The notes under the pieces are model-generated. The model was given only the letters and a program-made list of their open reading frames with translations. It did not search any database and was not told the DNA's origin. A stretch of 64,000 bases of DNA from Paraburkholderia sp. PGU19. GTDB taxonomy: Bacteria; Pseudomonadota; Gammaproteobacteria; Burkholderiales; Burkholderiaceae. The stretch's first letter is position 1. Each line of letters starts with the position of its first letter. The stretch covers positions 992,001-1,056,000 of the forward strand of contig NZ_AP023179.1 in assembly GCF_013426915.1 (NCBI RefSeq), written 5' to 3'. Positions 4,270 through 47,251 of this stretch are shown one piece after another. A program made the position numbers and the translations under genes.

Positions 4270-5682
<1,413 letters not shown>

Positions 5683-35560: not shown

Positions 35561-36061
35561 CTACCGCGCTACACGCCGATAAGTCACAAACGCATACTCA
35601 AAATCATTCGGCTCTTTAGCCCGATGCGTCTCACGAGAAACCTCGTGCCAAATCGCCGGATCAGGCGCCGGAAACCTGGCATCACCGTCAAAGTCGGCAT
35701 GAATCTCAGTAACGATCATCTTATCCGCGCGCCGCGCACCTTCCTCATACAACTGCGCGCCGCCGATCAAAAACACCTCCGCGGCCCCATCACGCTCAGC
35801 GAGCGCCAACGCATCATCGAGATTAGTAACGGCATCGCACCCGTCGAAGCGCCGCTGCGCATCCCGCGTCACAACAATATTGCGCCGCCCGGGCAGCACC
35901 CGCCCAATCGATTCATGCGTCTTGCGCCCCATGACAATAGGCGCGCCCAGCGTCGTGCGTTTGAAGAACGCGAGATCTTCGGGCAGCCGCCAGGGCAACT
36001 GGTTATCACGGCCGATCACGCCATTGCGGGCGCGAGCGACGATCAGGGTCAGCGTCGTCAT
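35561..36061 (-). CDS. folA: Dihydrofolate reductase
   Basis: FolA reduces dihydrofolate to tetrahydrofolate. The 166-residue protein has the active-site stretch [21 protein letters not shown], the NADPH motif [12 protein letters not shown] and [11 protein letters not shown]. In many Burkholderia it lies near thyA, its metabolic partner; here about 10 kb of amyloid-type genes separate them. It may be read from the leftward upstream operon as well as from its own promoter. Confidence 0.96.
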
Positions 36062-36135: not shown

Positions 36136-37737
36136 TCAAGCATACCGACGCGAAGCGCGAAGCCACGTCCGCAAACAGAACAAAACGTCACTCGCGCGAT
36201 TCGTGGTCGCCCCATACACACCTTTGCCATCAGCCTTCTCATCGCCCTTGAAACCCGCCTTATCGTCAGTCGAGGTATCGCGCAATCCATGCGTGCCCAT
36301 CAGCCGATACAGCGTCACACGCGAAATCCCCAGATCCGTCGCCGCCTCGTTGAGCCGGTGCCGGTGCCGCAGCAGCGCGACTTCGATTGCACGCTTTTCG
36401 GCGGCCTCGCGCGCCTGCGCAAGACTCATCGTCTGCTGCTCGCTGAAGTGCGCGAGGTCGAGATCCTCGGCGGAAATCAGCTTGTTCTCTGCCATCACGA
36501 TCGCGCGGCGCACCCGGTTGATCAGCTCGCGTACATTGCCCGGCCAGTGGTAGTTGTACATCGCCTCGATCGCCGAGGGCGTGAAGCCGCGAATCTTGCG
36601 CGCATTGTCCGTCTTGAACTTGCCGAGAATATGATGCGCAAGCAACTCGATATCCTTGCCGCGCGAGCGCAGCGGTGGCTCGTCCACACGCAGCACGCAC
36701 AGCCGGTGAAACAGATCCTGGCGGAAGCGCCCATCACCCATCGCGCCTTCCAGATCGACGTGCGTCGCCGAGATAATGCGGACGTCGACGGAGATCGATT
36801 CGTGGCCGCCCAGCCGCTCGATCTTCCCTTCCTGCAGGAAGCGCAACAGGCTCGCCTGGCTTTCCATCGGCAGATCGCCGATTTCATCGAGAAACAGCGT
36901 GCCGCCGTTGGCCGATTCGACGCGGCCGATCTTGCGCTGGTTCGCGCCCGTGAACGCGCCGCGCTCGTAACCGAACAGCTCCGACTGCAGCAGATGATGC
37001 GGAATCGCGCCGCAATTGATCGGCACGAACGGCGCCTTGCGGCGCGGCGAGCGTTCGTGGATCGCGAGCGCCGTCAGTTCCTTGCCCGTGCCCGATTCGC
37101 CCGAGATGAACACGCTCGCGTCGGTGTTCGCGACCTTGCGGATGGTGCGGAACAGCTGCTGCATCGCTTCGCAGGTGCCGACCATCTCGTCGTCGCTCGC
37201 GCCCGTGGTGTCGGGCGGCAGGTCGGCGTCGCACAGATTGACCATGCCGTACGCGTGGCCGACCAGATAGTCGATCGTCGCGTTCGCCACGGGAATCTTC
37301 ACGTAGTCGAAACAGTAGTGGCGGATCAGCCGCCGCACGGCCGGGTCCGCGAGCCGTTCGGGATTCGCCAGCGCGATCCAGCCGACCTGCTGCGCGCGCA
37401 AGCTCGCCTCCAGGCCCGGCAGGTCGCGCACGGCGAAACTCGCCATGTCGACGATTCCCGCGCACATCGTCGCGGGCTTCACGAGCCGTCCGATCTCGTG
37501 CGCCGAGCGGGCGACCAGCACACTCCAGCCGCGGCTCTTCAGATGCTCGACGAGCGCGTCGTCGGGCGTGCGCGCGGCGTACAGCAGGATTCGCGCGCCG
37601 GGATCGGTTGCGGCGCCGCGCGGCGCGTCGACGCCCACGGGATGCGCCGCGGGCGTGTCGCTCCCGCGTGACACGGCAAGACGCAACCCGGAGCCGGCGA
37701 GCGGGGGAACGGAGCTCAGATGAGAAGTTTCGCGCAC
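36136..37737 (-). CDS. VpsR-like sigma-54 dependent activator (copy 1)
   Basis: The 533-residue protein is a bacterial enhancer-binding protein. It has a receiver-like N-terminal domain of the VpsR/FleQ type (about residues 48-165, with an Asp97 in GIVDMAS), then an AAA+ domain with Walker A GESGTGKE (213-220), the sigma-54 contact loop GAFTGA (260-265) and Walker B LFLDEIGDL (281-289), and a Fis-type helix-turn-helix LGISRVTLYRLM. VpsR-type regulators often respond to c-di-GMP. It starts at a GTG 24 bp after the FapF-like gene, so it is probably the last gene of that operon. A 45-residue C-terminal tail is absent from copy 2. Confidence 0.9.
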   Translation of the reverse strand: MRETSHLSSVPPLAGSGLRLAVSRGSDTPAAHPVGVDAPRGAATDPGARILLYAARTPDDALVEHLKSRGWSVLVARSAHEIGRLVKPATMCAGIVDMASFAVRDLPGLEASLRAQQVGWIALANPERLADPAVRRLIRHYCFDYVKIPVANATIDYLVGHAYGMVNLCDADLPPDTTGASDDEMVGTCEAMQQLFRTIRKVANTDASVFISGESGTGKELTALAIHERSPRRKAPFVPINCGAIPHHLLQSELFGYERGAFTGANQRKIGRVESANGGTLFLDEIGDLPMESQASLLRFLQEGKIERLGGHESISVDVRIISATHVDLEGAMGDGRFRQDLFHRLCVLRVDEPPLRSRGKDIELLAHHILGKFKTDNARKIRGFTPSAIEAMYNYHWPGNVRELINRVRRAIVMAENKLISAEDLDLAHFSEQQTMSLAQAREAAEKRAIEVALLRHRHRLNEAATDLGISRVTLYRLMGTHGLRDTSTDDKAGFKGDEKADGKGVYGATTNRASDVLFCLRTWLRASRRYA

Positions 37738-37761
37738 GATCTGCCTCGTATCGGTGTCACG

Positions 37762-39228
37762 TCAAAAGGTATAGGGAAAGCGCACGCCGATCACATAGTT
37801 CGGCGCGTCGGGCGTCATGCCGATCGATACCGAACCGTTGATCGTCAGATGCTTGTTCACTACGTGGTTCAGGCCAAAATTCATCACGGCTGCCGTCGTC
37901 TCGCTGCCCGGCACGCTCACGTAATCGCCGCCGGGCGCCTTCGTTTTCGACGCGGGCTGCAGCGCGAGCGTGTACGAGATGCTGGCCGAGTCCTTGTCGG
38001 AGAATGCGAGCGCGACGCCCGCGCCGAGCTGGAAGATATCGCCGAGCTTCACGGTCGCGGGCTGCGTCTGCCCAGCGATCGACGAGATGTCCGAGAACGA
38101 GCGCGCGATGTTGTACGTGTAGGACAGGCTGCCGAACAGCACGACAGGGTCATAGGTCTTCAGTACCGACAGGCCCGCCGTCAGGTTCCAGAAACCCGTG
38201 CCCGTGGGCAGCTTCGACGGCGCGACGAGGTTGGTGTTGTCCGGCTCGAGCTGCACGACCTTGATGCCGAACGGCGAGGTGCCCGTCGGCGCTTTCACGC
38301 GCAGGCTGCCGACCACGTCGGGGATGCTGTTGGTCTCCTTCAGGATCTGGTAGTAGAACCCGAAGTTCACGTCGCCTATCGCGTTCGAGTTGACGGACGC
38401 GTCCGACAGCGTATTCGCCGCGCCGCCCGCGCCGCCGACGATGAACTGGCTGTGCCGGTAGATATACGGCACGTCGACGTCGACGCTGATGCGGTCCGTG
38501 AGGCCGTAGCGCACGTCGAGATCGGCCATCACCTGGTGCGACTTGGTCTGCCCCAGGTTGATGTTGCCGAGAAAGATCGCGTCGAGCGCGAGGAAGCCCG
38601 ACAGCTGCAGTTGCCGGCGGTCGTAGTAGGTATCGCTGATACCCCAGTCCAGTGTCAGCTTGTGATCGAAGAGCGGCGCGTGCTCGCGCTGCACGACGGC
38701 TTCCTCGGCCTGCGTTCGTACCGGCTCGGCGGCTTTCTGGGTCTGGCCGACGGCGCCTTCCGGCATGCCGGGGCCGCTCGCCTGCGCGTTGGGATTGCTG
38801 GTGCCGGGCGAGCCAGCCGACGTCGAGCCTTCCGGCGCGGGCGGATTGACGGGTACGCCCGTCGCGGTGCCCGTCGCGTTGCCCGGCGCAGGCGCGCCGG
38901 GCGTCACCTGGGCTAGCGGCGGGAGCGGCATCGGCAGGCCGTCCGCGCCCGGCTGCTCGGCAACTGCTTCACTGCCGGCGGGCGCGCCATAGCCAGGCGC
39001 GCCGCGGCCGCGCTGCGACATTTCCAGATTCGTCACCTGCCGTTCGAGCGAGTGAATCTGCCGCTGCTGCTCGTCGACGACACGCATCAGCGTGTTGAGC
39101 CGCTCCTCGAGCGACTGGTTGTTGATGGCTTGTGCGGAAACCCCCTGTGACAGCGCGAACAGCATCGCCGCAGCAGGAATAGCCGCGAGTCGGACTCGCG
39201 GCTTCCTGCCTGTTGTGTTAATCATCAT
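37762..39228 (-). CDS. FapF-like outer-membrane transporter with N-terminal coiled coil
   Basis: The 488-residue protein has a signal peptide (ending VSAQA, about residue 33), then a heptad-like coiled coil (about 38-71, LEERLNTLMRVVDEQQRQIH), a Pro/Gly/Ala-rich linker, and a C-terminal beta-barrel that ends in a terminal phenylalanine (GVRFPYTF). This is the layout of FapF, the trimeric pore that exports Fap amyloid subunits in Pseudomonas. The barrel is of the phenol-degradation MetA type. GGGGGAAG at 39233 fits the ATG at 39228. It comes last among the exported genes, as fapF does. Confidence 0.75.
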   Translation of the reverse strand: MMINTTGRKPRVRLAAIPAAAMLFALSQGVSAQAINNQSLEERLNTLMRVVDEQQRQIHSLERQVTNLEMSQRGRGAPGYGAPAGSEAVAEQPGADGLPMPLPPLAQVTPGAPAPGNATGTATGVPVNPPAPEGSTSAGSPGTSNPNAQASGPGMPEGAVGQTQKAAEPVRTQAEEAVVQREHAPLFDHKLTLDWGISDTYYDRRQLQLSGFLALDAIFLGNINLGQTKSHQVMADLDVRYGLTDRISVDVDVPYIYRHSQFIVGGAGGAANTLSDASVNSNAIGDVNFGFYYQILKETNSIPDVVGSLRVKAPTGTSPFGIKVVQLEPDNTNLVAPSKLPTGTGFWNLTAGLSVLKTYDPVVLFGSLSYTYNIARSFSDISSIAGQTQPATVKLGDIFQLGAGVALAFSDKDSASISYTLALQPASKTKAPGGDYVSVPGSETTAAVMNFGLNHVVNKHLTINGSVSIGMTPDAPNYVIGVRFPYTF

Positions 39229-39340
39229 TATTCTTCCCCCGGTGAATCTGGCTGCACTTGGCTGGTTCTTATGCTTCGTGCCGCCGCTTTCTGTACGACT
39301 TTTCCTCCTGATGACGCCTGCTGACGGGTCGCGGCCCGCC

Positions 39341-40147
39341 CTATCTCCTTGCATTCACCGCGTTTTGCAGGGCTTGTAGTACGCCGGCCTGGCGCAGCAT
39401 CGCGGACGACATGGGCGTCGTCTGCAACGAGAGCTGCAACTGGTTGGCGACTTGCTGGTTATTGCCTGCGATCTGCAGTAGTTGGGCAATCGCGCCGGCC
39501 TGTTGCGCGTTGCTGGGTGCAATGGTTTGCGATGCGATGCCGGCAGGCGTCTGCAGCGCGACGCTCACGCCGCCGTTGCCGAACGAGATGCCCGCCTTGA
39601 TGTTGCCCGCCGTGTTCGAGGCCGCGGCGCTCTGTGCATTCGTGCCGCCTGACAGCAGTTGCGGATTGTTGTTGAAGTCGATCGTCGCCGTGTTGAAGCC
39701 GACGTTGCGATCGCCCGCCACCTGCGTGACCTGCGATACGCCGTTGACCGCGATGCGTTGTCCGCCGATCGTCTGGGCATTCGGGTCTGCGCCCGGATTG
39801 CCGCGGCCGTCGGTGACGCGCGCAAGCGTGCTGACGTTGGCCGTCAGCGCGTTCGCCGCATTGGTGGCAACGGAGAGCGTGCCTTGCGCGAGCGCATTCG
39901 CGCCGTTCGGCAACTGCCATTGCGACAGTACGTTCAATACGAAACCGGAGATCATTTGTCCGCCCGCGCCTTTTCCGGTCTGCTGGGCGAGCACATCATC
40001 CCCGACGCTTTGCCACTGGATCGCCGCCGGCGCCACGTCGCGCGACGTCGAGACGTCTGCGGCGAAAGCGCTGGTTGCGAGGCCGCATGCCGTGGCGATC
40101 AATGTCGCGAGACAGGTGCGGGCGGGCTGGTTGAGGTAGTGCTTCAT
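39341..40147 (-). CDS. FapE-position exported protein with a double-glycine-like motif
   Basis: The 268-residue protein has a signal peptide (ending SAFA, residue 29), then VGDDVLAQQTGKGAGG at residues 48-63, and a long Asn/Gln/Ala-rich region. Its gene follows the C39 peptidase gene by seven bases, the place held by fapE in Pseudomonas. The motif resembles double-glycine leaders that C39 peptidases cleave. Assignment as a FapE counterpart rests on gene order and composition, not on clear sequence identity. Confidence 0.65.
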   Translation of the reverse strand: MKHYLNQPARTCLATLIATACGLATSAFAADVSTSRDVAPAAIQWQSVGDDVLAQQTGKGAGGQMISGFVLNVLSQWQLPNGANALAQGTLSVATNAANALTANVSTLARVTDGRGNPGADPNAQTIGGQRIAVNGVSQVTQVAGDRNVGFNTATIDFNNNPQLLSGGTNAQSAAASNTAGNIKAGISFGNGGVSVALQTPAGIASQTIAPSNAQQAGAIAQLLQIAGNNQQVANQLQLSLQTTPMSSAMLRQAGVLQALQNAVNARR

Positions 40148-40154
40148 GGGTGAG

Positions 40155-40874
40155 TCAGAACAGGTCTGCCTTGATCAAGCCGTATTCGACAAAGGGAGTC
40201 GCGGCCGTGCCGTTGGCGAGCGCGCGCTCGCGCAGCCGCAAGGCCAGCGATTCGTTGTCCTGCAACAGCGGGGAATCCTCCCTGAAAGGTTTCCCGACGA
40301 CTGCGAATACGAGGCCATTCCATGTCTTCGCGAAGTCTTCCTCGAGCAATATCCGGTTGCCGAGAGCGGGGTCCGCGATGAAGATGCGACCGTCCTGCGC
40401 ATGCTTGACGATCACGAAATGCTCATAGCCGTCGAGGTTCATCAGAACCATGACGGGCACCTGGAGGTGATACAGCGCGTCCGTGTTCACGCGGAATCCG
40501 CGGCCCCGCAGCCCGATCGTCTCGACGAACTTCTTCATGTCGAGCATCGAAAAGCCGTTCTTGACCACGACCTCCGGCGTCGAGAAAACCATCATCCGGC
40601 GGATCAGGTCCGTCTCGGGGATGTCGATGCCGTAGCCGTACTTGAGGAGGGTTGCGAGCGCCGCCGCACCGCAGCTGTAATCGAACTGCTGGCTGACGAT
40701 ATGGCGGTAACGCAGGTCCCTCATCGAGTGCACCGTTTTGGTAAGCGGAATACCTGCGAGGGTAGACGTGTCGACGCTCGCCTGTGCGTTCACTCGCGCA
40801 CACAACGTGCAAGTAACGAGCGCAACGACAGTCGCGGCGGGTCGTAACGCCGGGAACCGGACAAACCCGGACAT
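40155..40874 (-). CDS. C39-type cysteine peptidase, FapD-like
   Basis: The 239-residue protein has a signal peptide (ending VNAQA, about residue 31) and a stand-alone papain-fold C39 domain. It has the oxyanion Gln and catalytic Cys in QQFDYSCGAAALATLL, the His in YEHFVIV, and the Asp in FIADPA. There is no ABC transporter or membrane domain, so it acts in the periplasm, as FapD does; FapD is the C39-like protease of Fap operons. GGAG precedes the ATG. A GC-rich hairpin separates it from the large repeat protein gene upstream. Confidence 0.82.
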   Translation of the reverse strand: MSGFVRFPALRPAATVVALVTCTLCARVNAQASVDTSTLAGIPLTKTVHSMRDLRYRHIVSQQFDYSCGAAALATLLKYGYGIDIPETDLIRRMMVFSTPEVVVKNGFSMLDMKKFVETIGLRGRGFRVNTDALYHLQVPVMVLMNLDGYEHFVIVKHAQDGRIFIADPALGNRILLEEDFAKTWNGLVFAVVGKPFREDSPLLQDNESLALRLRERALANGTAATPFVEYGLIKADLF

Positions 40875-40893
40875 GCTGGTCTCCTGCCAAGTC

Positions 40894-40922
40894 GCGCCGG
40901 CGGCTGCATTGGCCGCCGGCGC
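40894..40922 (-). other. GC-rich hairpin between the FapC-like and FapD-like genes
   Basis: An 11-bp perfect stem GCGCCGGCGGC / GCCGCCGGCGC with a seven-base loop and no T run. A second six-base stem (40957-40975) spans the stop codon of the repeat protein gene. Such structures can protect an upstream mRNA from 3' decay and raise the ratio of structural subunit to protease. Confidence 0.6.
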
Positions 40923-40966
40923 ATCCCGTATGGCTGCTTGTTTCGCTGCCTGTTTCAGCCGCCTTT

Positions 40967-42364
40967 TTAGCGGCTGGTGTTCATCGAAGCGATCGCGAGC
41001 CCGTTGTGCTGCACGTTGCCCGCGCCGCCCGCGATGTTCACGCCGATGTTGCCCGTCGCGTGGCTGAGCGCGCCTGCGCCGAGCGTCGCCGTGCCTTCGA
41101 ACGAGCCACGGAAGTCCACGCCCGCCGTTTGCGACGAGTCATCCGTCGCCACCATCGCTGCGCTGCCGTGGCTGCGCGAGACCGTCGACGTCGAAGCCGC
41201 CATGCTGTTGTTCTGCACGTTGCTGATGCCCGACGCGACGTTCACGCCGACGTTGCCCGATGCGTACTGCAGCGAACCGTCGCCGACCGAGGCGTTCACG
41301 TTGAAGTTGTTGATGCTGGCCTTGCCGCCCGAGCTCTGGCTGTTGAAGACCTGAGCGTTGCCGAACACGTTGCCGGCATCGACGGAAGCGAGCGCAGCGT
41401 CGTTGCCCTGCGCGTTGTTGACGCCTTCCGCGATGTTGACGCCGATGTTGCCGCTCACGTTCTGCGCGGCGTTGCTGCCCGTCGTCGCCGTCAGGTTGCC
41501 CGCCTTCTGCGTGTTGATGTGCTGCGTGACCGAGCCATACACTTCCACGTCCGTCTTCGCGGTCGACGAGTTGAAGCCCCACTGCGCAGCGAAGCTGTCG
41601 TGCGTTTTGGAGTTCTCGACTTCATAGCCGCTCGACTGCTCGCCGTGGGCCGCGTAGCCGGAGCCCTGGTTCGCCTGGTAGCCCCACACCTTGCCTTGGC
41701 CCGAGCCTTCGACTGCGCCGAACGAGCCGCCGATCTGCTCGCTGTTGCGATAGCTCGATTCCTTGTAACCAGCCGACAGGCCACCCGAAATGCTGGCATG
41801 GCCCGAGGAAACGCCCGTCCACGGGTTGTAGCCGGAAGCCGATTCGTAGCTGACGCCTGCATGTCCGCCCGCCGAGATGTGGCCGCCGGCGTTCTGGCTT
41901 TCATGGCTGAAGCTGCCGCCGATTTCCGCTGCCTGCGCGCTGAACTCGAAGCCGCCGCCCTTGACCGAGCTGCTCTGGTTGCCGTACGCGTAGCCCGACG
42001 AAGACTGATAGCCCTGCGCGTGAGACGACTCAGACGAGTGCGAGGTCGACAGCGAAGCCCATGCGCTGCCGCTGCTGTTGATCGATTTGTAGCTGTTGTC
42101 GATCCGCGTCGTCACGGAGCCGGACGTGTACGACTGCGCATTCGGGCTGAGCGAGGTGTTCGCGTACGCGTGCTGTGTGTTGTTGACGACGGCGCCCGCC
42201 GTGCTGGAGACGCCGACGCAGCCGAACAGCGTGACGAACCCTTCGATCCCGACGGCTTCTCCGACCAGCGTCGCATTGAAAATGAACGGGTTCTTCAGCG
42301 GGCTCGCAAAGGCGCTGGTGGAAGCGGCGGCGAGGACGGCTGCTGCAATGAGAGTGCGCTTCAT
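40967..42364 (-). CDS. FapC-like major amyloid candidate with three repeats
   Basis: The 465-residue exported protein has a signal peptide (ending SAFA, residue 20), a 280-residue Ser/Gly/Tyr/His-rich region, and three C-terminal repeats: GNIGVNIAEGVNNAQGN (305-321), GNVGVNVASGISNVQNN (370-386) and GNIGVNIAGGAGNVQHN (438-454). The repeats are 65-68 residues apart, and the linkers vary in sequence. Three imperfect repeats with conserved Asn and Gln, separated by variable linkers, are the plan of FapC. The order after a smaller three-repeat protein and before a C39 peptidase also matches. The long Ser/Tyr-rich N-region is not typical of Pseudomonas FapC. Confidence 0.78.
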   Translation of the reverse strand: MKRTLIAAAVLAAASTSAFASPLKNPFIFNATLVGEAVGIEGFVTLFGCVGVSSTAGAVVNNTQHAYANTSLSPNAQSYTSGSVTTRIDNSYKSINSSGSAWASLSTSHSSESSHAQGYQSSSGYAYGNQSSSVKGGGFEFSAQAAEIGGSFSHESQNAGGHISAGGHAGVSYESASGYNPWTGVSSGHASISGGLSAGYKESSYRNSEQIGGSFGAVEGSGQGKVWGYQANQGSGYAAHGEQSSGYEVENSKTHDSFAAQWGFNSSTAKTDVEVYGSVTQHINTQKAGNLTATTGSNAAQNVSGNIGVNIAEGVNNAQGNDAALASVDAGNVFGNAQVFNSQSSGGKASINNFNVNASVGDGSLQYASGNVGVNVASGISNVQNNSMAASTSTVSRSHGSAAMVATDDSSQTAGVDFRGSFEGTATLGAGALSHATGNIGVNIAGGAGNVQHNGLAIASMNTSR

Positions 42365-42393
42365 GGTTTCGCTCCGATACTAGTTGTGGTCAG

Positions 42394-43002
42394 TTAGAAA
42401 AGAGTGCCCGCCGGGGGACGGAGCACGAAACTGTTCGCCGTGGCATTACCGGCTCCGGCAGTCTGGTTGATCTGCACGATTCCATTGACGTTCTTGAAGG
42501 CATCGCTGGAAATGCTGGCCTCGCGGACGCCTTGTGGTGCGACCGCCTGACTCTGACCGCCGTTATGCGCGGCCGTCGCGGATAGCACCCCATCCGAGAC
42601 GGTCTCGACCCCTGGCGCGGCAGTGCCGAGCAGCACACTGTTGCGCTGGAGATTCCCTGCGCCCGCAGACTGGTTCACCATCACCGCTCCGGACGAACTC
42701 GAAAATGCGTTGCCTTCGATCGACGCGCGCGCGCTCGGCACCCGCGCCCGCGCGGTGGCGCTCTGCATGCTCGCGTTGTCGTTTGCGACGGCGTCGCCGT
42801 TGGTGATCGTCAACTGGTTGGCCTGCGCGTTGTTCAGGCCCGCGGCCTGGTTCACCGTGATCGCGCCCGTCGCGCTGACGGCGGCGCCCGTGGCGATGCT
42901 CGCGTCGCCGCTCACGCGTCCCACCTGCTGCGCGTACGACGGTTGTGCGGCGACCAGGGCGAGGGCTGCGAGGAGCGGAATCGGGCGAAGTAGCGTGTTC
43001 AT
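42394..43002 (-). CDS. FapB-like minor amyloid candidate with three repeats
   Basis: The 202-residue exported protein has a signal peptide (ending PSYAQ, about residue 25) and three repeats: GAITVNQAAGLNNAQAN (46-62), GAVMVNQSAGAGNLQRN (105-121) and GIVQINQTAGAGNATAN (174-190). The motif is close to that of the large protein downstream. FapB, the nucleator of Fap fibres, is likewise a smaller three-repeat protein encoded just before fapC. Its ATG overlaps the upstream stop as ATGA, so translation is coupled. Confidence 0.75.
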   Translation of the reverse strand: MNTLLRPIPLLAALALVAAQPSYAQQVGRVSGDASIATGAAVSATGAITVNQAAGLNNAQANQLTITNGDAVANDNASMQSATARARVPSARASIEGNAFSSSSGAVMVNQSAGAGNLQRNSVLLGTAAPGVETVSDGVLSATAAHNGGQSQAVAPQGVREASISSDAFKNVNGIVQINQTAGAGNATANSFVLRPPAGTLF

Positions 43003-43496
43003 TTGCCGAGGCCTCCGAGCGCGCCGCCGAGTGCGGTGGACAGCGGTGCAAGCGAGCCCGTCACCGACGCGGAAATATTGCCGCCGATGCCCGGAGCCGG
43101 CTGGCCGATGCCGCCCGAGTTGAGCGCGACGTTGTTGTTCGTGGTGTTGCCCGTGAGGATGCGCGTGACGGCCTGCAGGCCGGCGCCGCCCGCGACGTTT
43201 CTGTCGAGGCCCGTCGAGCCGTGCGCGTTGGTCAGATCGGCATCCGACGCGACTTGCGCCATCGTCGGGTTGAAGGTGGTGCCGGGGAAGGTCGAGACGC
43301 GCGCGCTGACGGGGTCCTGATCTTTTGGCACGGGCGCATAGGCGATGCGCGGGGTGATTTCGCGCTGCACGACGATGTCGCCCGGGTTCGCGGCCTGTGC
43401 GAAGGCCGCGCCGGCGAAACCGGCGGCGCACAGACCAGCGATGACGGCCAGCCGTGTCGCGAGCCGTGGCGCGCCAGTCGTGCTAACTGCACCCAT
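42999..43496 (-). CDS. Exported protein of unknown function in the Fap-like operon
   Basis: The 165-residue protein has a signal peptide (ending GAAFAQ), a conserved-looking stretch DIVVQREITPRIAYAPVPKD, and an Asn/Gly-rich C-terminal half (GNTTNNNVALNSGGIGQ). It has no three-repeat pattern. It has no obvious place in fapABCDEF and may be an extra subunit or a chaperone. The start could also be the ATG at 43532, which would lengthen the signal peptide by 12 residues. It overlaps the next gene by four bases. Confidence 0.65.
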   Translation of the reverse strand: MGAVSTTGAPRLATRLAVIAGLCAAGFAGAAFAQAANPGDIVVQREITPRIAYAPVPKDQDPVSARVSTFPGTTFNPTMAQVASDADLTNAHGSTGLDRNVAGGAGLQAVTRILTGNTTNNNVALNSGGIGQPAPGIGGNISASVTGSLAPLSTALGGALGGLGK

Positions 43497-43613
43497 TGCG
43501 CGGCTGCACAGCCTTCCCCATGAAGCGATCATTTTGTATGTCCCCGGCTATCCAGTTTGGAGTGCGAAACAGTCTGCACTGGTCTCTTTTGCGTGCGATG
43601 TCGTGTTGTTGTG

Positions 43614-44078
43614 TTACTTCCTCTGGTAGTTCGCTACGTTGCCTTGCGCGGCGCGCGCGGCATCGATGGGAATGGGCAGCGGCGACGGCGGCGCGATTTC
43701 GTCCCACAGCGTCACGGCCGAGCCGCGCGTCAACTGCGGCGTCACCGCGACCATCACCATGCCCGCCGCGCCGCCGCGCTGGCGCGACAGCACCTGGTCG
43801 TCCAGCGCGAAGTCGCTCATCGCGGCGCTGTCGGCCGGCACGCCGTTAGCAATATCGACGCCGGTCGTCGTGTCCGCAGTCACGTTCGATGTTTCGTCCG
43901 TGGCGACTTCCGTTGTCTGTTGCGCGGCTGTCGCCGTCGTCGCGTTTGTCGCATCCGTCAAGGATGCCTGGGCGTAAACAACGGCCGACATTGACGAAAG
44001 CGCGAGTGCGACGCACACGGCAAGGCCAGCGGGCAGCATTGAAATGTGGTTCGAGTCGATGCGGAAAACGAGTCGCAT
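43614..44078 (-). CDS. First gene of the Fap-like operon, FapA-position exported protein
   Basis: The 154-residue protein has a signal peptide (ending VVYAQA, about residue 37), a Thr/Ala-rich segment, and the motif LDDQVLSRQRGG at residues 92-103. The motif has hydrophobic residues at -12 and -7 from a GG pair, like a double-glycine leader; it then continues into a hydrophobic segment. Size and first position fit FapA, the periplasmic chaperone-like subunit, but sequence similarity is not evident. AAGGAGAG at 44086-44093 is a strong ribosome site for the ATG at 44078. Confidence 0.68.
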   Translation of the reverse strand: MRLVFRIDSNHISMLPAGLAVCVALALSSMSAVVYAQASLTDATNATTATAAQQTTEVATDETSNVTADTTTGVDIANGVPADSAAMSDFALDDQVLSRQRGGAAGMVMVAVTPQLTRGSAVTLWDEIAPPSPLPIPIDAARAAQGNVANYQRK

Positions 44079-44106
44079 GATGTCTCTCCTTGGTGCGGGA
44101 CATTTA

Positions 44107-44121
44107 GCGAAACGTGTGCCA
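44107..44121 (-). promoter_or_regulatory. Sigma-54 promoter of the Fap-like operon
   Basis: On the - strand the bases read TGGCACACGTTTCGC. The -24 element TGGCAC is perfect, the -12 keeps the essential GC (TCGC for TTGC), and the spacing from GG to GC is exact. Transcription would start near 44095, just upstream of the ribosome site of the first gene. Both neighbouring regulators carry the GAFTGA loop that contacts sigma-54. Confidence 0.75.
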
Positions 44122-44196: not shown

Positions 44197-44212
44197 GTTT
44201 CAGGTCTGAAAC
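44197..44212. promoter_or_regulatory. Candidate activator (enhancer) site
   Basis: GTTTCAGGTCTGAAAC is a perfect inverted repeat with seven-base arms, centred about 110 bp upstream of the predicted sigma-54 start. That is the usual distance for an enhancer-binding protein site. An overlapping CAGGT-N5-ACCTG repeat ends at 44215. Confidence 0.5.
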
Positions 44213-44628: not shown

Positions 44629-46023
44629 ATGGAATCCGCCACGCGGCAACTGATTTACGTATCAAGAGATCCAAGCGCGGAGTTGAACACGCGTTTTCAT
44701 GAGCGCGGGTGGCATGTCGAGGTTGTCGGTTCGGCACGCGATGCCCGCCGCGCCGTACGCTCGGGGATGGCGGCGGGTGGTCTGCTCGATCTGTCGAGCT
44801 GTTTCCAGCAGCATGAAATCGCGGCGTTTGAATCCTGTCTGACCATGCCGAATGTCGGCTGGGTCGCCACCACGATGGCAGGCCAGTTGCAGGATGCCGC
44901 ATTACGCCGGCTAGTACGCGACTATTGTTTCGATTACGTTACCGTGCCGTATTCGGGCGACCGGATCGTCGATTCGGTGGGTCACGCATATGGCATGGTT
45001 TCGCTTGGCGAACCGGCGTCCAATGACGCATCGCAAGGCGGCACGGAAGGCGAAATGGTCGGTTCGTGCGACGCGATGCTCGCGTTGTTCCGTTCCATCC
45101 GCAAGGTCGCGATGACCGATGCGCCCGTCTTCATTTCCGGCGAATCGGGCACCGGCAAGGAACTCACGGCCGTTGCCATTCACGAGCGCTCGTCGCGCCG
45201 CAACGCGCCGTTCATCCCCATCAACTGCGGCGCGATTCCGCCGCATCTGCTGCAATCGGAGCTGTTTGGCTACGAGCGCGGCGCGTTCACGGGCGCGAAC
45301 CAGCGCAAGATCGGGCGCGTCGAGGCGGCCAACGGCGGCACGCTGTTCCTCGATGAAATCGGCGATCTGCCGCTCGAAAGCCAGGCGAGCCTGCTGCGCT
45401 TCCTGCAGGAGCGCAAGGTCGAGCGGCTCGGCGGACATGGCTCGATCGAAGTGGACGTGCGGATCATTTCCGCGACACACGTCGACATGAACACGGCGAT
45501 GATCGAAGGGCGGTTTCGCTCGGACCTGTATCACCGGCTGTGCGTGCTGCAGATCGACGAGCCGCCGCTGCGCGCGCGCGGCAAGGACATCGAGCTGCTC
45601 GCGCGGCATATGCTCGAACGTTTCAGGAAAGATGCGAGCCGCCGGCTGCGCGGCTTCGCGCCCGATGCCATCGCGGCGCTCCACAACTACAGCTGGCCGG
45701 GCAACGTGCGGGAGCTGATCAACCGCGTGCGGCGTGCGATCGTGATGTCGGAAGGGCGGGCAATCACTGCGCGCGATCTCGAACTGGCCGAGTACGTCGA
45801 AATCGTGCCCGTGTCGCTTGCCCAGGCGCGCGAGGCCGCCGAGCGGCAGGCGATCGAACTGGCGCTGCTGCGTCATCGCGGCCGTCTGGGCGATGCCGCG
45901 CAGGAGCTGGGCATCTCGCGCGTCACGCTGTACCGGTTGTTGTGCTCGCACGGCATGCGGCATATGGAAAGCGAGCCGCTCGCGCCGCACGCGGAGATGC
46001 CGTCGACGATGCCGCATCTCTAA
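44629..46023 (+). CDS. VpsR-like sigma-54 dependent activator (copy 2)
   Basis: The 464-residue protein is a paralogue of the activator at 36136-37737. A receiver-like N-terminal domain (about 8-125, Asp54 in GLLDLSS) is followed by an AAA+ domain with Walker A GESGTGKE (171-178) and GAFTGA (218-223), and by a Fis-type helix-turn-helix LGISRVTLYRLL. It is divergent from the Fap-like operon across a 550-bp region with a sigma-54 promoter, so it is the most likely activator of that operon. AGAGGA at 44615 fits the ATG. A strong terminator follows. Confidence 0.9.
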   Translation: MESATRQLIYVSRDPSAELNTRFHERGWHVEVVGSARDARRAVRSGMAAGGLLDLSSCFQQHEIAAFESCLTMPNVGWVATTMAGQLQDAALRRLVRDYCFDYVTVPYSGDRIVDSVGHAYGMVSLGEPASNDASQGGTEGEMVGSCDAMLALFRSIRKVAMTDAPVFISGESGTGKELTAVAIHERSSRRNAPFIPINCGAIPPHLLQSELFGYERGAFTGANQRKIGRVEAANGGTLFLDEIGDLPLESQASLLRFLQERKVERLGGHGSIEVDVRIISATHVDMNTAMIEGRFRSDLYHRLCVLQIDEPPLRARGKDIELLARHMLERFRKDASRRLRGFAPDAIAALHNYSWPGNVRELINRVRRAIVMSEGRAITARDLELAEYVEIVPVSLAQAREAAERQAIELALLRHRGRLGDAAQELGISRVTLYRLLCSHGMRHMESEPLAPHAEMPSTMPHL

Positions 46024-46279: not shown

Positions 46280-47251
46280 ATGAAACAGTACCTCGACCTC
46301 GTCCGCACGATCCTCGATACCGGCAGCTGGCAGGAAAACCGCACCGGCATCCGCACGATCAGCTTGCCGGGGGCGATGTTGCGCTTCGATCTGCAGCAGG
46401 GTTTCCCCGCCGTGACGACGAAGAAGCTCGCGTTCAAGTCGGCGATCGGCGAACTGATCGGCTTTCTGCGCGCGTCGCGCAGTGCCGCCGATTTCCGCGC
46501 GCTCGGCTGCAAGGTCTGGGACGGGAACGCGAACGAAAACGCGCAGTGGCTCGCCAATCCCTACCGGCAAGGGTCGGACGACCTCGGCGACGTGTACGGC
46601 GTGCAGTGGCGCAAGTGGCCCGCCTACAAGGTGCTCGACGCGACAGCGAGCGCGCAGCTGGAAGACGCGGCATCGCGCGGGTACGCGCCCGTCACCCGGT
46701 TCGAGGAAGACGGCGTGCGGAAGGTACTGCTGTACAAGGCGATCGACCAGATTCGCCAGTGTCTCGACACGATCATGAAAAACCCGTCCGACCGTCGGAT
46801 TTTGTTTCATGCGTGGAATCCGGCCGTGCTCGAGGAAATCGCGCTGCCGGCGTGCCATCTGCTGTACCAGTTTCTGCCAAACGTCGCGAAGCGCGAGATT
46901 TCGCTGTGCCTCTATATTCGCAGTAACGACGTCGGGCTCGGCACGCCGTTCAACCTGACGGAAGGGGCGGCGCTGCTGCACCTCGTCGGCCGCCTGACGG
47001 GCTATACGCCGCGCTGGTTCACTTACTTCATCGGCGATGCGCATATTTACGAGAATCAGCTCGACATGTTGCAGCAGCAACTGATGCGCGATCCGTATGA
47101 AAGCCCGCAACTCGCGATTTCGGAACGCGTGCCCGACTATGCCAAGACGGGCGTGTACGAGCCTGAGTGGCTGGAGAAGATCGAGCCGTCCGATTTCTCG
47201 CTGGTCGGCTATCGCCACCATGAACCGCTGACGGCGCCGATGGCGATCTGA
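46280..47251 (+). CDS. thyA: Thymidylate synthase
   Basis: ThyA methylates dUMP with methylene-tetrahydrofolate to dTMP, and folA recycles the resulting dihydrofolate. The 323-residue protein has the catalytic Cys192 in [11 protein letters not shown] and the folate/dUMP motif [17 protein letters not shown]. It is longer than E. coli ThyA (264) because of an internal insertion around residues 90-150, as in other betaproteobacterial forms. The ATG at 46280 follows GGAACC-type sequence. It ends at a perfect bidirectional terminator. Confidence 0.95.

Follow-up and report, generated by a model that had tools for sequence, protein, structure and literature searches.

A seven-gene fap operon in Paraburkholderia sp. 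PGU19, with a conserved extra first gene and a C39-leader-like motif common to FapE and the product of that gene

The window analysed here, a stretch of 64,000 nucleotides from Paraburkholderia sp. PGU19 (NCBI RefSeq assembly GCF_013426915.1, contig NZ_AP023179.1, positions 992,001 to 1,056,000 of the forward strand), holds what is almost certainly a genuine and complete operon for Fap functional amyloid, in which fapA to fapF are preceded by a further gene that we call X. The genome carrying it measures 11.25 Mb, and most of the closest named relatives listed for FapD and X belong to Paraburkholderia. Eight leftward open reading frames (ORFs) lie in 36136-44121, at the coordinates given by an initial annotation of this DNA, whose end point, 44121, is also where a sigma-54 element begins on the minus strand (44121-44106). 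The outer neighbours, by their sequences probably folA (35561-36061) and thyA (46280-47251), have relatives flanking the operon in all 20 same-genus loci. The genes and elements of the locus, read in the direction of the operon, are as follows.

44629..46023, plus strand: EBP2, a paralogous VpsR-domain sigma-54 activator with GAFTGA, divergent from X
44197..44212, minus strand: inverted repeat GTTTCAG-N2-CTGAAAC, a predicted activator-binding site 91 bp upstream of the -24 element
44106..44121, minus strand: sigma-54 -24/-12 element TGGCACACGTTTCGCT, beginning 43 bp ahead of the start codon of X
43614..44078, minus strand: X, the extra first gene (154 residues), with a signal-peptide-like start (by eye), variable linker, C39-leader-like motif and LWDE module
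43770..43805, minus strand: leader-like motif of X, LDDQVLSRQRGG (L-12, D-10, L-7, Q-4, G-2, G-1)
43686..43715, minus strand: module VTLWDEIAPP of X; VTLWDE is invariant in the 16-sequence alignment A1
42999..43532, minus strand: fapA (NCBIfam NF058617, expectation value E 8e-11; NF058556, E 9e-8)
42394..43002, minus strand: fapB, small three-repeat subunit, its start overlapping the fapA stop
42796-42912, 42619-42735 and 42412-42528, minus strand: repeats of fapB
40967..42364, minus strand: fapC, large three-repeat subunit
41381-41497, 41186-41302 and 40982-41098, minus strand: repeats of fapC
40155..40874, minus strand: fapD, exported stand-alone C39 peptidase (catalytic Cys segment 40668-40691)
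39341..40147, minus strand: fapE, Asn/Gln-rich exported protein
39971..40006, minus strand: leader-like motif of FapE, VGDDVLAQQTGK (V-12, D-10, L-7, Q-4, G-2, K-1)
37762..39354, minus strand: fapF, ORF as listed (true start likely near 39228), with a coiled coil at 39001-39117 and an outer-membrane barrel from about 38664 down to 37762
36136..37737, minus strand: EBP1, VpsR-domain sigma-54 activator with GAFTGA, downstream of fapF

Fap identity, which the initial annotation had deduced from gene order, protein size and domain plan, is borne out by direct profile, PDB-sequence and fold searches, from which all six Fap proteins are homologous to their namesakes. FapF matches NCBIfam NF058560 at 358 bits (E 5e-107), and its barrel, which does end in Phe as claimed, matches FapF crystal structures, aligning with PDB 5o65 over residues 230-530 (E 1.2e-81). 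FapD (NF058616, 209 bits, E 6e-62), FapB (NF058557, E 4e-26), FapC (NF058558, E 7e-14) and FapA were likewise recognised in the profile searches proposed as a check, all below the curated equivalog cut-offs, which no protein of the window attains. For FapF that cut-off is attained in 0/117, 0/200 and 0/60 genomes as against 17 of 79 presumed Pseudomonadaceae genomes, a family picked through an OprF search (one genome at 260 bits) because a class-wide FapA search gave matches in 7 of 369 genomes, none above cut-off. The window FapE alone has no match to NCBIfam NF058559; a FapE intermediate from another genus matches the NCBIfam FapE model at 63.6 bits, and in a profile-profile comparison the FapE family profile meets presumed Pseudomonadaceae FapE at 98.3% (E 2e-14). 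Many of the FapE homologues listed are called 'peptidase C39' in their source records, a name that suits the neighbouring FapD, not FapE, and has probably been given to them in error.

The published Fap repeat pattern X15-G-X4-N-X3-G-X6-N-X7 recovers the six repeat copies already described, three in FapB and three in FapC, with zero matches in the other five exported proteins of the operon, and 0 of 2000 shuffles of either repeat protein reached three. The C39 Gln/Cys/His/Asp set also stands: FapD, whose start reads by eye like a signal peptide, has Q62, C68, H152 and D168, invariant in 29/29 aligned sequences (window included; four from a related second system). The genes run in the order A-B-C-D-E-F with one added in front, so that the collinearity with Pseudomonas proposed earlier holds for the order and errs on the misfit. 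The second gene (42999-43532), previously labelled unknown, matches FapA (E 8e-11), and the gene that does not fit fapABCDEF is therefore the first; the first gene as fapA was rejected, since the FapA models match the second.

Structure prediction, suggested as a further check on the repeat proteins, agrees for FapC. Its model has a mean predicted local distance difference test score (pLDDT) of 56.5, with about 70-90 in the repeats and low confidence for most of the first 280 residues; the repeat region is modelled as strands, and the best fold match is cryo-EM FapC 9u4u (Foldseek E 1.6e-5, the sole match below 0.001). On this model FapC is predicted to give fibres of cross-beta type resistant to sodium dodecyl sulphate. 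For the FapD model (mean pLDDT 74.5, falling under 50 over residues 56-64 with Q62 among them), C39 domains rank first in the fold search, leader-bound 6mpz among them. The Ser/Gly/Tyr-rich N-region of FapC, raised earlier as a possible mark of a distinct lineage, is not enough on its own to define one: other FapC are similarly long (462-527 residues in 20 same-genus loci, 464-467 in three presumed Pseudomonadaceae FapC), and size variability is already published (PMC3792158; this and the other papers cited by such numbers are represented by excerpts). Fap operons in Burkholderia have been in print since 2013 (PMC3792158), so the core operon is ordinary, and a 2025 re-survey assigns more than 90% of 1602 clusters to fapABCDEF or fapBCDEF (PMC12822426). 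Beyond this ordinary core stand the conserved extra gene X, a leader-like motif common to FapE and X, and a conserved sigma-54 promoter with its upstream box and two flanking activators.

All 20 same-genus loci have X together with fapA-F, as do 15 of the 20 sampled elsewhere in the family and 80/80 named loci, the last being the best 80 of 144 found with the window FapD and biased toward close relatives. LWDE is present in every one of the 80 named X, and across 79 X the layout is 68-217 residues before the leader (counted from the most upstream start), 19-26 from there to LWDE and 30-33 to the end. Pfam and NCBIfam hold nothing near a cut-off for X, no informative name appears among the 120 of 431 homologues listed (hypothetical or uncharacterized, with one 'Lipoprotein'), and a class-wide search, with at most nine candidates scored per genome listed, found X in its own genome only (1/369). 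Three loci (L091, L092, L148) have a fapA frame ahead of X in the ORF list, an effect of extending each ORF to its most upstream start, which makes the frames overlap. A second X-like gene, with LWDE and without a leader, lies on the opposite strand beside fapF in L086, L087, L091, L092 and L096.

The leader-like motif was counted over 71 fap loci, a set that omits the damaged operons L113 and L115, a Vibrio plasmid record in which no FapE was recognised (L233) and ten loci without FapA or FapE (L105-L112, L114, L116). A strict pattern finds it in FapE of 68 loci, and looser patterns in all 71 and in 80/80 named loci. For X it is found in 35 of 41 entries, equal to 35 of the 36 operon-head copies, the six misses being the five leaderless second copies on the other strand and L097, which reads RGT; 78 of the 80 named X have it, and the remaining two read RGS and RGT. 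The same pattern in the 71 loci turns up in FapA 1/69, FapB 2/75, FapC 1/73, FapD 0/71 and FapF 5/71, with shuffle rates of 0.9-2.3% for these five proteins, 1.0% for FapE and 0.5% for X. FapF as the main leader-bearing substrate was dropped on its 5/71. Independent support comes from a comparison of the X and FapE family profiles, in which only the 28-column leader segment aligns (80%, E 1.4e-5).

Both motifs share with the C39 leaders of bacteriocin exporters (ComA, PCAT1, LahT) the register of a hydrophobic residue at -12, Leu at -7 and Gly at -2, with Ala at -12 in three of the 71 FapE (L088-L090); they differ in that FapE and X have Sec-type signal peptides, FapD is a free periplasmic enzyme and FapE carries Lys or Arg at -1. 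The presumed Pseudomonadaceae FapE have L-4 and R/K-1, and their leaders, for example VELSDQELSQLRGR, add to the independent support by fitting the printed consensus Leu(-12)-X3-Glu(-8)-Leu(-7) (PMC6363468), the same source seating -4, -7 and -12 in a hydrophobic groove of LahT. When a position-specific scoring matrix built from these leaders was applied to 5882 ORFs, four of its six highest scores went to Burkholderiaceae FapE. Unrelated ORFs also came out near the top, one of them in first place, and many FapE and X fell below, which makes this weaker evidence than the pattern counts. Processing of the FapE N-terminus and of the FapF periplasmic region by FapD has been suggested in print (PMC12822426), which makes cleavage of FapE by FapD a hypothesis already in the literature. 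Rouse and colleagues in 2017 regarded the FapD target as unclear and the Fap proteins as without canonical C39 sequences, and found the FapD catalytic Cys necessary for FapC secretion (PMC5557850). Because the motif is present in FapE and X and almost never in FapA, B, C or D, and the target of FapD is unclear in print, FapE and X become concrete predicted FapD substrates. A seventh fap gene or a FapE leader motif was not found in the literature searched, in excerpts and with most subscription papers outside its reach.

Several observations weigh against this reading. The test pattern was derived from FapE and X themselves and the sets of 71 and 80 loci share species; the counts thus speak for specificity, without giving an independent rate of discovery. 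The loose form of the pattern has further matches in 151 of 3509 any-frame ORFs of at least 100 residues and in 6 of 68 EBP1 proteins. The -1 residue of FapE is Lys or Arg in all 68 tabulated leaders, where the C39 literature, in excerpt, gives Gly-Gly, Gly-Ala or Gly-Ser at -2/-1, and in the window both the FapE and the X motif place Gln, not a hydrophobic residue, at -4 and Val, not Glu, at -8. The generic leader families of Pfam and NCBIfam match neither FapE nor X up to the limit of E 10. X itself was not recognised in 5 of the 20 fap loci from other genera of the family, and in 31 fap loci outside the family no ORF was assigned to it at E up to 0.01; X is therefore dispensable for Fap in general. 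With all this in view, recognition of the leader by FapD seems to us the better bet by a modest measure, and cleavage of the FapE and X leaders by FapD is predicted from their sequences.

Control of the operon by sigma-54 is highly probable. Of 118 loci holding X, 115 have an equivalent of TGGCACACGTTTCGCT, and in 101 of the 115 it stands 42-45 bp ahead of an ATG; the loci without it are L109 (not a Fap locus), L130 and L145, and the pattern occurs 130 times in the 4.84 Mb of these loci, both strands counted. Upstream of the first gene, the core GTTTC-N6-GAAAC is present in 25 of the 36 loci with X and in 1/5, 2/12 and 3/18 loci of the groups without X, with 37 boxes in 1.37 Mb altogether, and the exact box GTTTCAG-N2-CTGAAAC is absent upstream of fapA in those groups. 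Across the genus, the box (one variable base per arm) followed by TGGCAY-N6-YGC at 72-78 bp occurs in 86 of 117 genomes, while the reversed control has no match among them.

In its own genome the combined element occurs twice, at fap and upstream of a gene for a glycine-rich exported protein. The second copy (G000:C1:757498-757603; L277, element 4911-5016) has the same 91-bp spacing as at fap and sits about 380 bp upstream of that gene (L277 ORF 3666-4532, minus strand); similar elements precede similar glycine-rich exported proteins in L316-L319. The only other exact GTTTCAG-N2-CTGAAAC of the genome (C1:2828038-2828053; L276:6001) has no sigma-54-like site at the fap distance. A promoter element was also seen at G043:C98:36980-37085, in a genome with only a distant FapF-like match.

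The two activators, 63% identical to each other, each combine a VpsR-type N-domain, an AAA+ sigma-54 domain with GAFTGA and a C-terminal helix-turn-helix. By this domain make-up they are activators of the BrfA/BerB kind, and binding of cyclic diguanylate (c-di-GMP) is predicted for both. A matching activator stands beside fap in all 18 presumed Pseudomonadaceae loci fetched, and EBP1 is 45% identical to the fap-adjacent activator of one such genome. BrfA of Pseudomonas fluorescens, a reversed gene downstream of fapA-F, activates fap with RpoN, and the fapA -24/-12 promoter has been mapped there by rapid amplification of 5' cDNA ends (PMC9207406); BrfA senses c-di-GMP (PMC13101488). With BrfA and with BerB of B. 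cenocepacia the window activators share GAFTGA, the AAA+ domain and a site next to a matrix operon, and differ in being two paralogues that bracket the operon, each with a VpsR-type N-domain; the excerpted description of BerB makes no mention of such a domain.

Against the fapABCDEF of Pseudomonas as a whole, the window shares the six-gene order, three repeats each in FapB and FapC, the C39 peptidase FapD, the FapF barrel with its coiled coil, the sigma-54 promoter and an adjacent enhancer-binding protein. It differs in the first gene X, in NCBIfam scores below the curated cut-offs and in its two activator genes, one divergent and one co-directional downstream, where Pseudomonas has one reversed downstream gene. 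The Burkholderia operon of 2013 is the same system in the same bacterial family, described as fapABCDEF with no seventh gene named in the excerpt (PMC3792158).

Some genomes of the genus appear to have lost fap while retaining its surroundings. FapF has no match in 21 of 117, six of which have the promoter element with thyA and EBP2 as its neighbours; folA comes next, and no fapA-F was recognised between. These six loci, L310-L315, bear the scars of fap loss in the stretch from thyA to folA, X surviving in some and decaying in others, and in L310 EBP2 is in pieces. X is still recognised in five of the six and VTLWDE is kept in five of five. Three of the five have a missing or truncated leader, and in L313 its Leu -7 is substituted; in L312 the leader is intact, a point against its recognition by FapD. 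Decay of the leader is what one expects if it matters only while FapD is present; five cases are few.

A second, distant FapF-like system was met in L105-L112 and L116. The seven loci examined have a small leader-bearing protein, a C39 peptidase and a barrel, and mostly a further leader-bearing protein; the nearest named families, in one locus, are FapD/FilB and FapF/FilC. Of the two damaged fap operons, L113 has FapF in two frames, a shortened FapE and no recognised FapC, and L115 no recognised FapB, FapD or FapE. In Burkholderiaceae FapF, an RGRG sits near the point of suspected cleavage in Pseudomonas. Burkholderia stagnalis (L156), presumably a member of the B. cepacia complex, has a complete fap locus. 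That complex is without fap genes according to the 2013 survey (PMC3792158, excerpt), and a 2018 review has B. cepacia among the Fap carriers.

Taken as a whole, a seven-gene operon X-fapABCDEF with FapD-read leaders and sigma-54/activator control is in our judgement a probable explanation of the locus. If Pseudomonas is a guide, c-di-GMP would turn the operon on through the activators and sigma-54, the Fap proteins would enter the periplasm by Sec, FapB, FapC and FapE would pass through FapF, and FapC, with FapB as nucleator, would form cross-beta fibres on the cell surface. In FapE, a little way past its signal peptide, FapD would recognise a leader of C39 type (hydrophobic -12, Asp -10, Leu -7, Gly -2); it would recognise its counterpart in X as well, and trim or dock on both as one step toward opening secretion. 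What follows the leader in X, a tail of about 50-60 residues that includes the LWDE module, may be a second FapD-licensed accessory component. To the more specific proposition, that the C39 leader licenses Fap secretion, with FapD reading FapE in all sampled systems and Burkholderiaceae X as a second substrate whose processed tail is an accessory or signal component of the fibre, we give an even chance.

The motif in FapE and X might instead be a docking tag for FapD or the FapF coiled coil that stays uncut, FapD cutting elsewhere, for example in FapF. We think this rather unlikely. Lys or Arg at -1 of FapE would suit it, as would the RGRG (window 39001-39012) directly after the Burkholderiaceae FapF coiled coil in the rows showing that stretch; Rouse et al. 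themselves propose a possible cleavage of the FapF linker (PMC5557850), and barrels of the second system have a leader-like pattern after the coiled coil in 8 of 9 cases (without a shuffle control), the ninth, L109, showing one as well. Yet no more than 5 of 71 loci have the FapE/X pattern in FapF, the motif is not visible in the printed stretches of presumed Pseudomonadaceae FapF, and it is FapE, not FapF, that appears in published mass spectrometry as the only Fap protein with a completely missing N-terminus (PMC5557850).

Less likely still is an accidental likeness of X to the FapE leader, X being a relic or a helper of the chaperone type that has nothing to do with FapD. The many fap systems in which X was not recognised point that way, as do the leaderless LWDE copies in five loci and the persistence of X with VTLWDE in five genomes without fapA-F, once with its leader intact; but the leader is kept in 78 of 80 named X though the preceding stretch varies from 68 to 217 residues, and four of the five fap-less genomes lose or alter it, yet keep VTLWDE. 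It is extremely improbable that the locus is not Fap at all and belongs to a second FapD/FapF-like family with a small leader protein, C39 peptidase, large protein and barrel, nearest to FilB/FilC. The window FapD does match FilB (118 bits) and FapF does match FilC (63 bits), but the 209 and 358 bits against the Fap models are far higher, and FapA is present together with FapB and FapC of three repeats each; a FilB/FilC-type system was rejected on the scores.

For the biology of Fap, the reading of FapE and X as FapD substrates bears on an enzyme whose activity is essential for secretion while its target and signal are stated to be unclear (PMC5557850, in excerpt). A leader spanning Burkholderiaceae to presumed Pseudomonadaceae pinpoints residues, and X offers a second candidate substrate. 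The promoter layout in turn names a candidate second member of the regulon, the glycine-rich exported protein, and its sharing may link two secreted products in a plant- and soil-associated genus.

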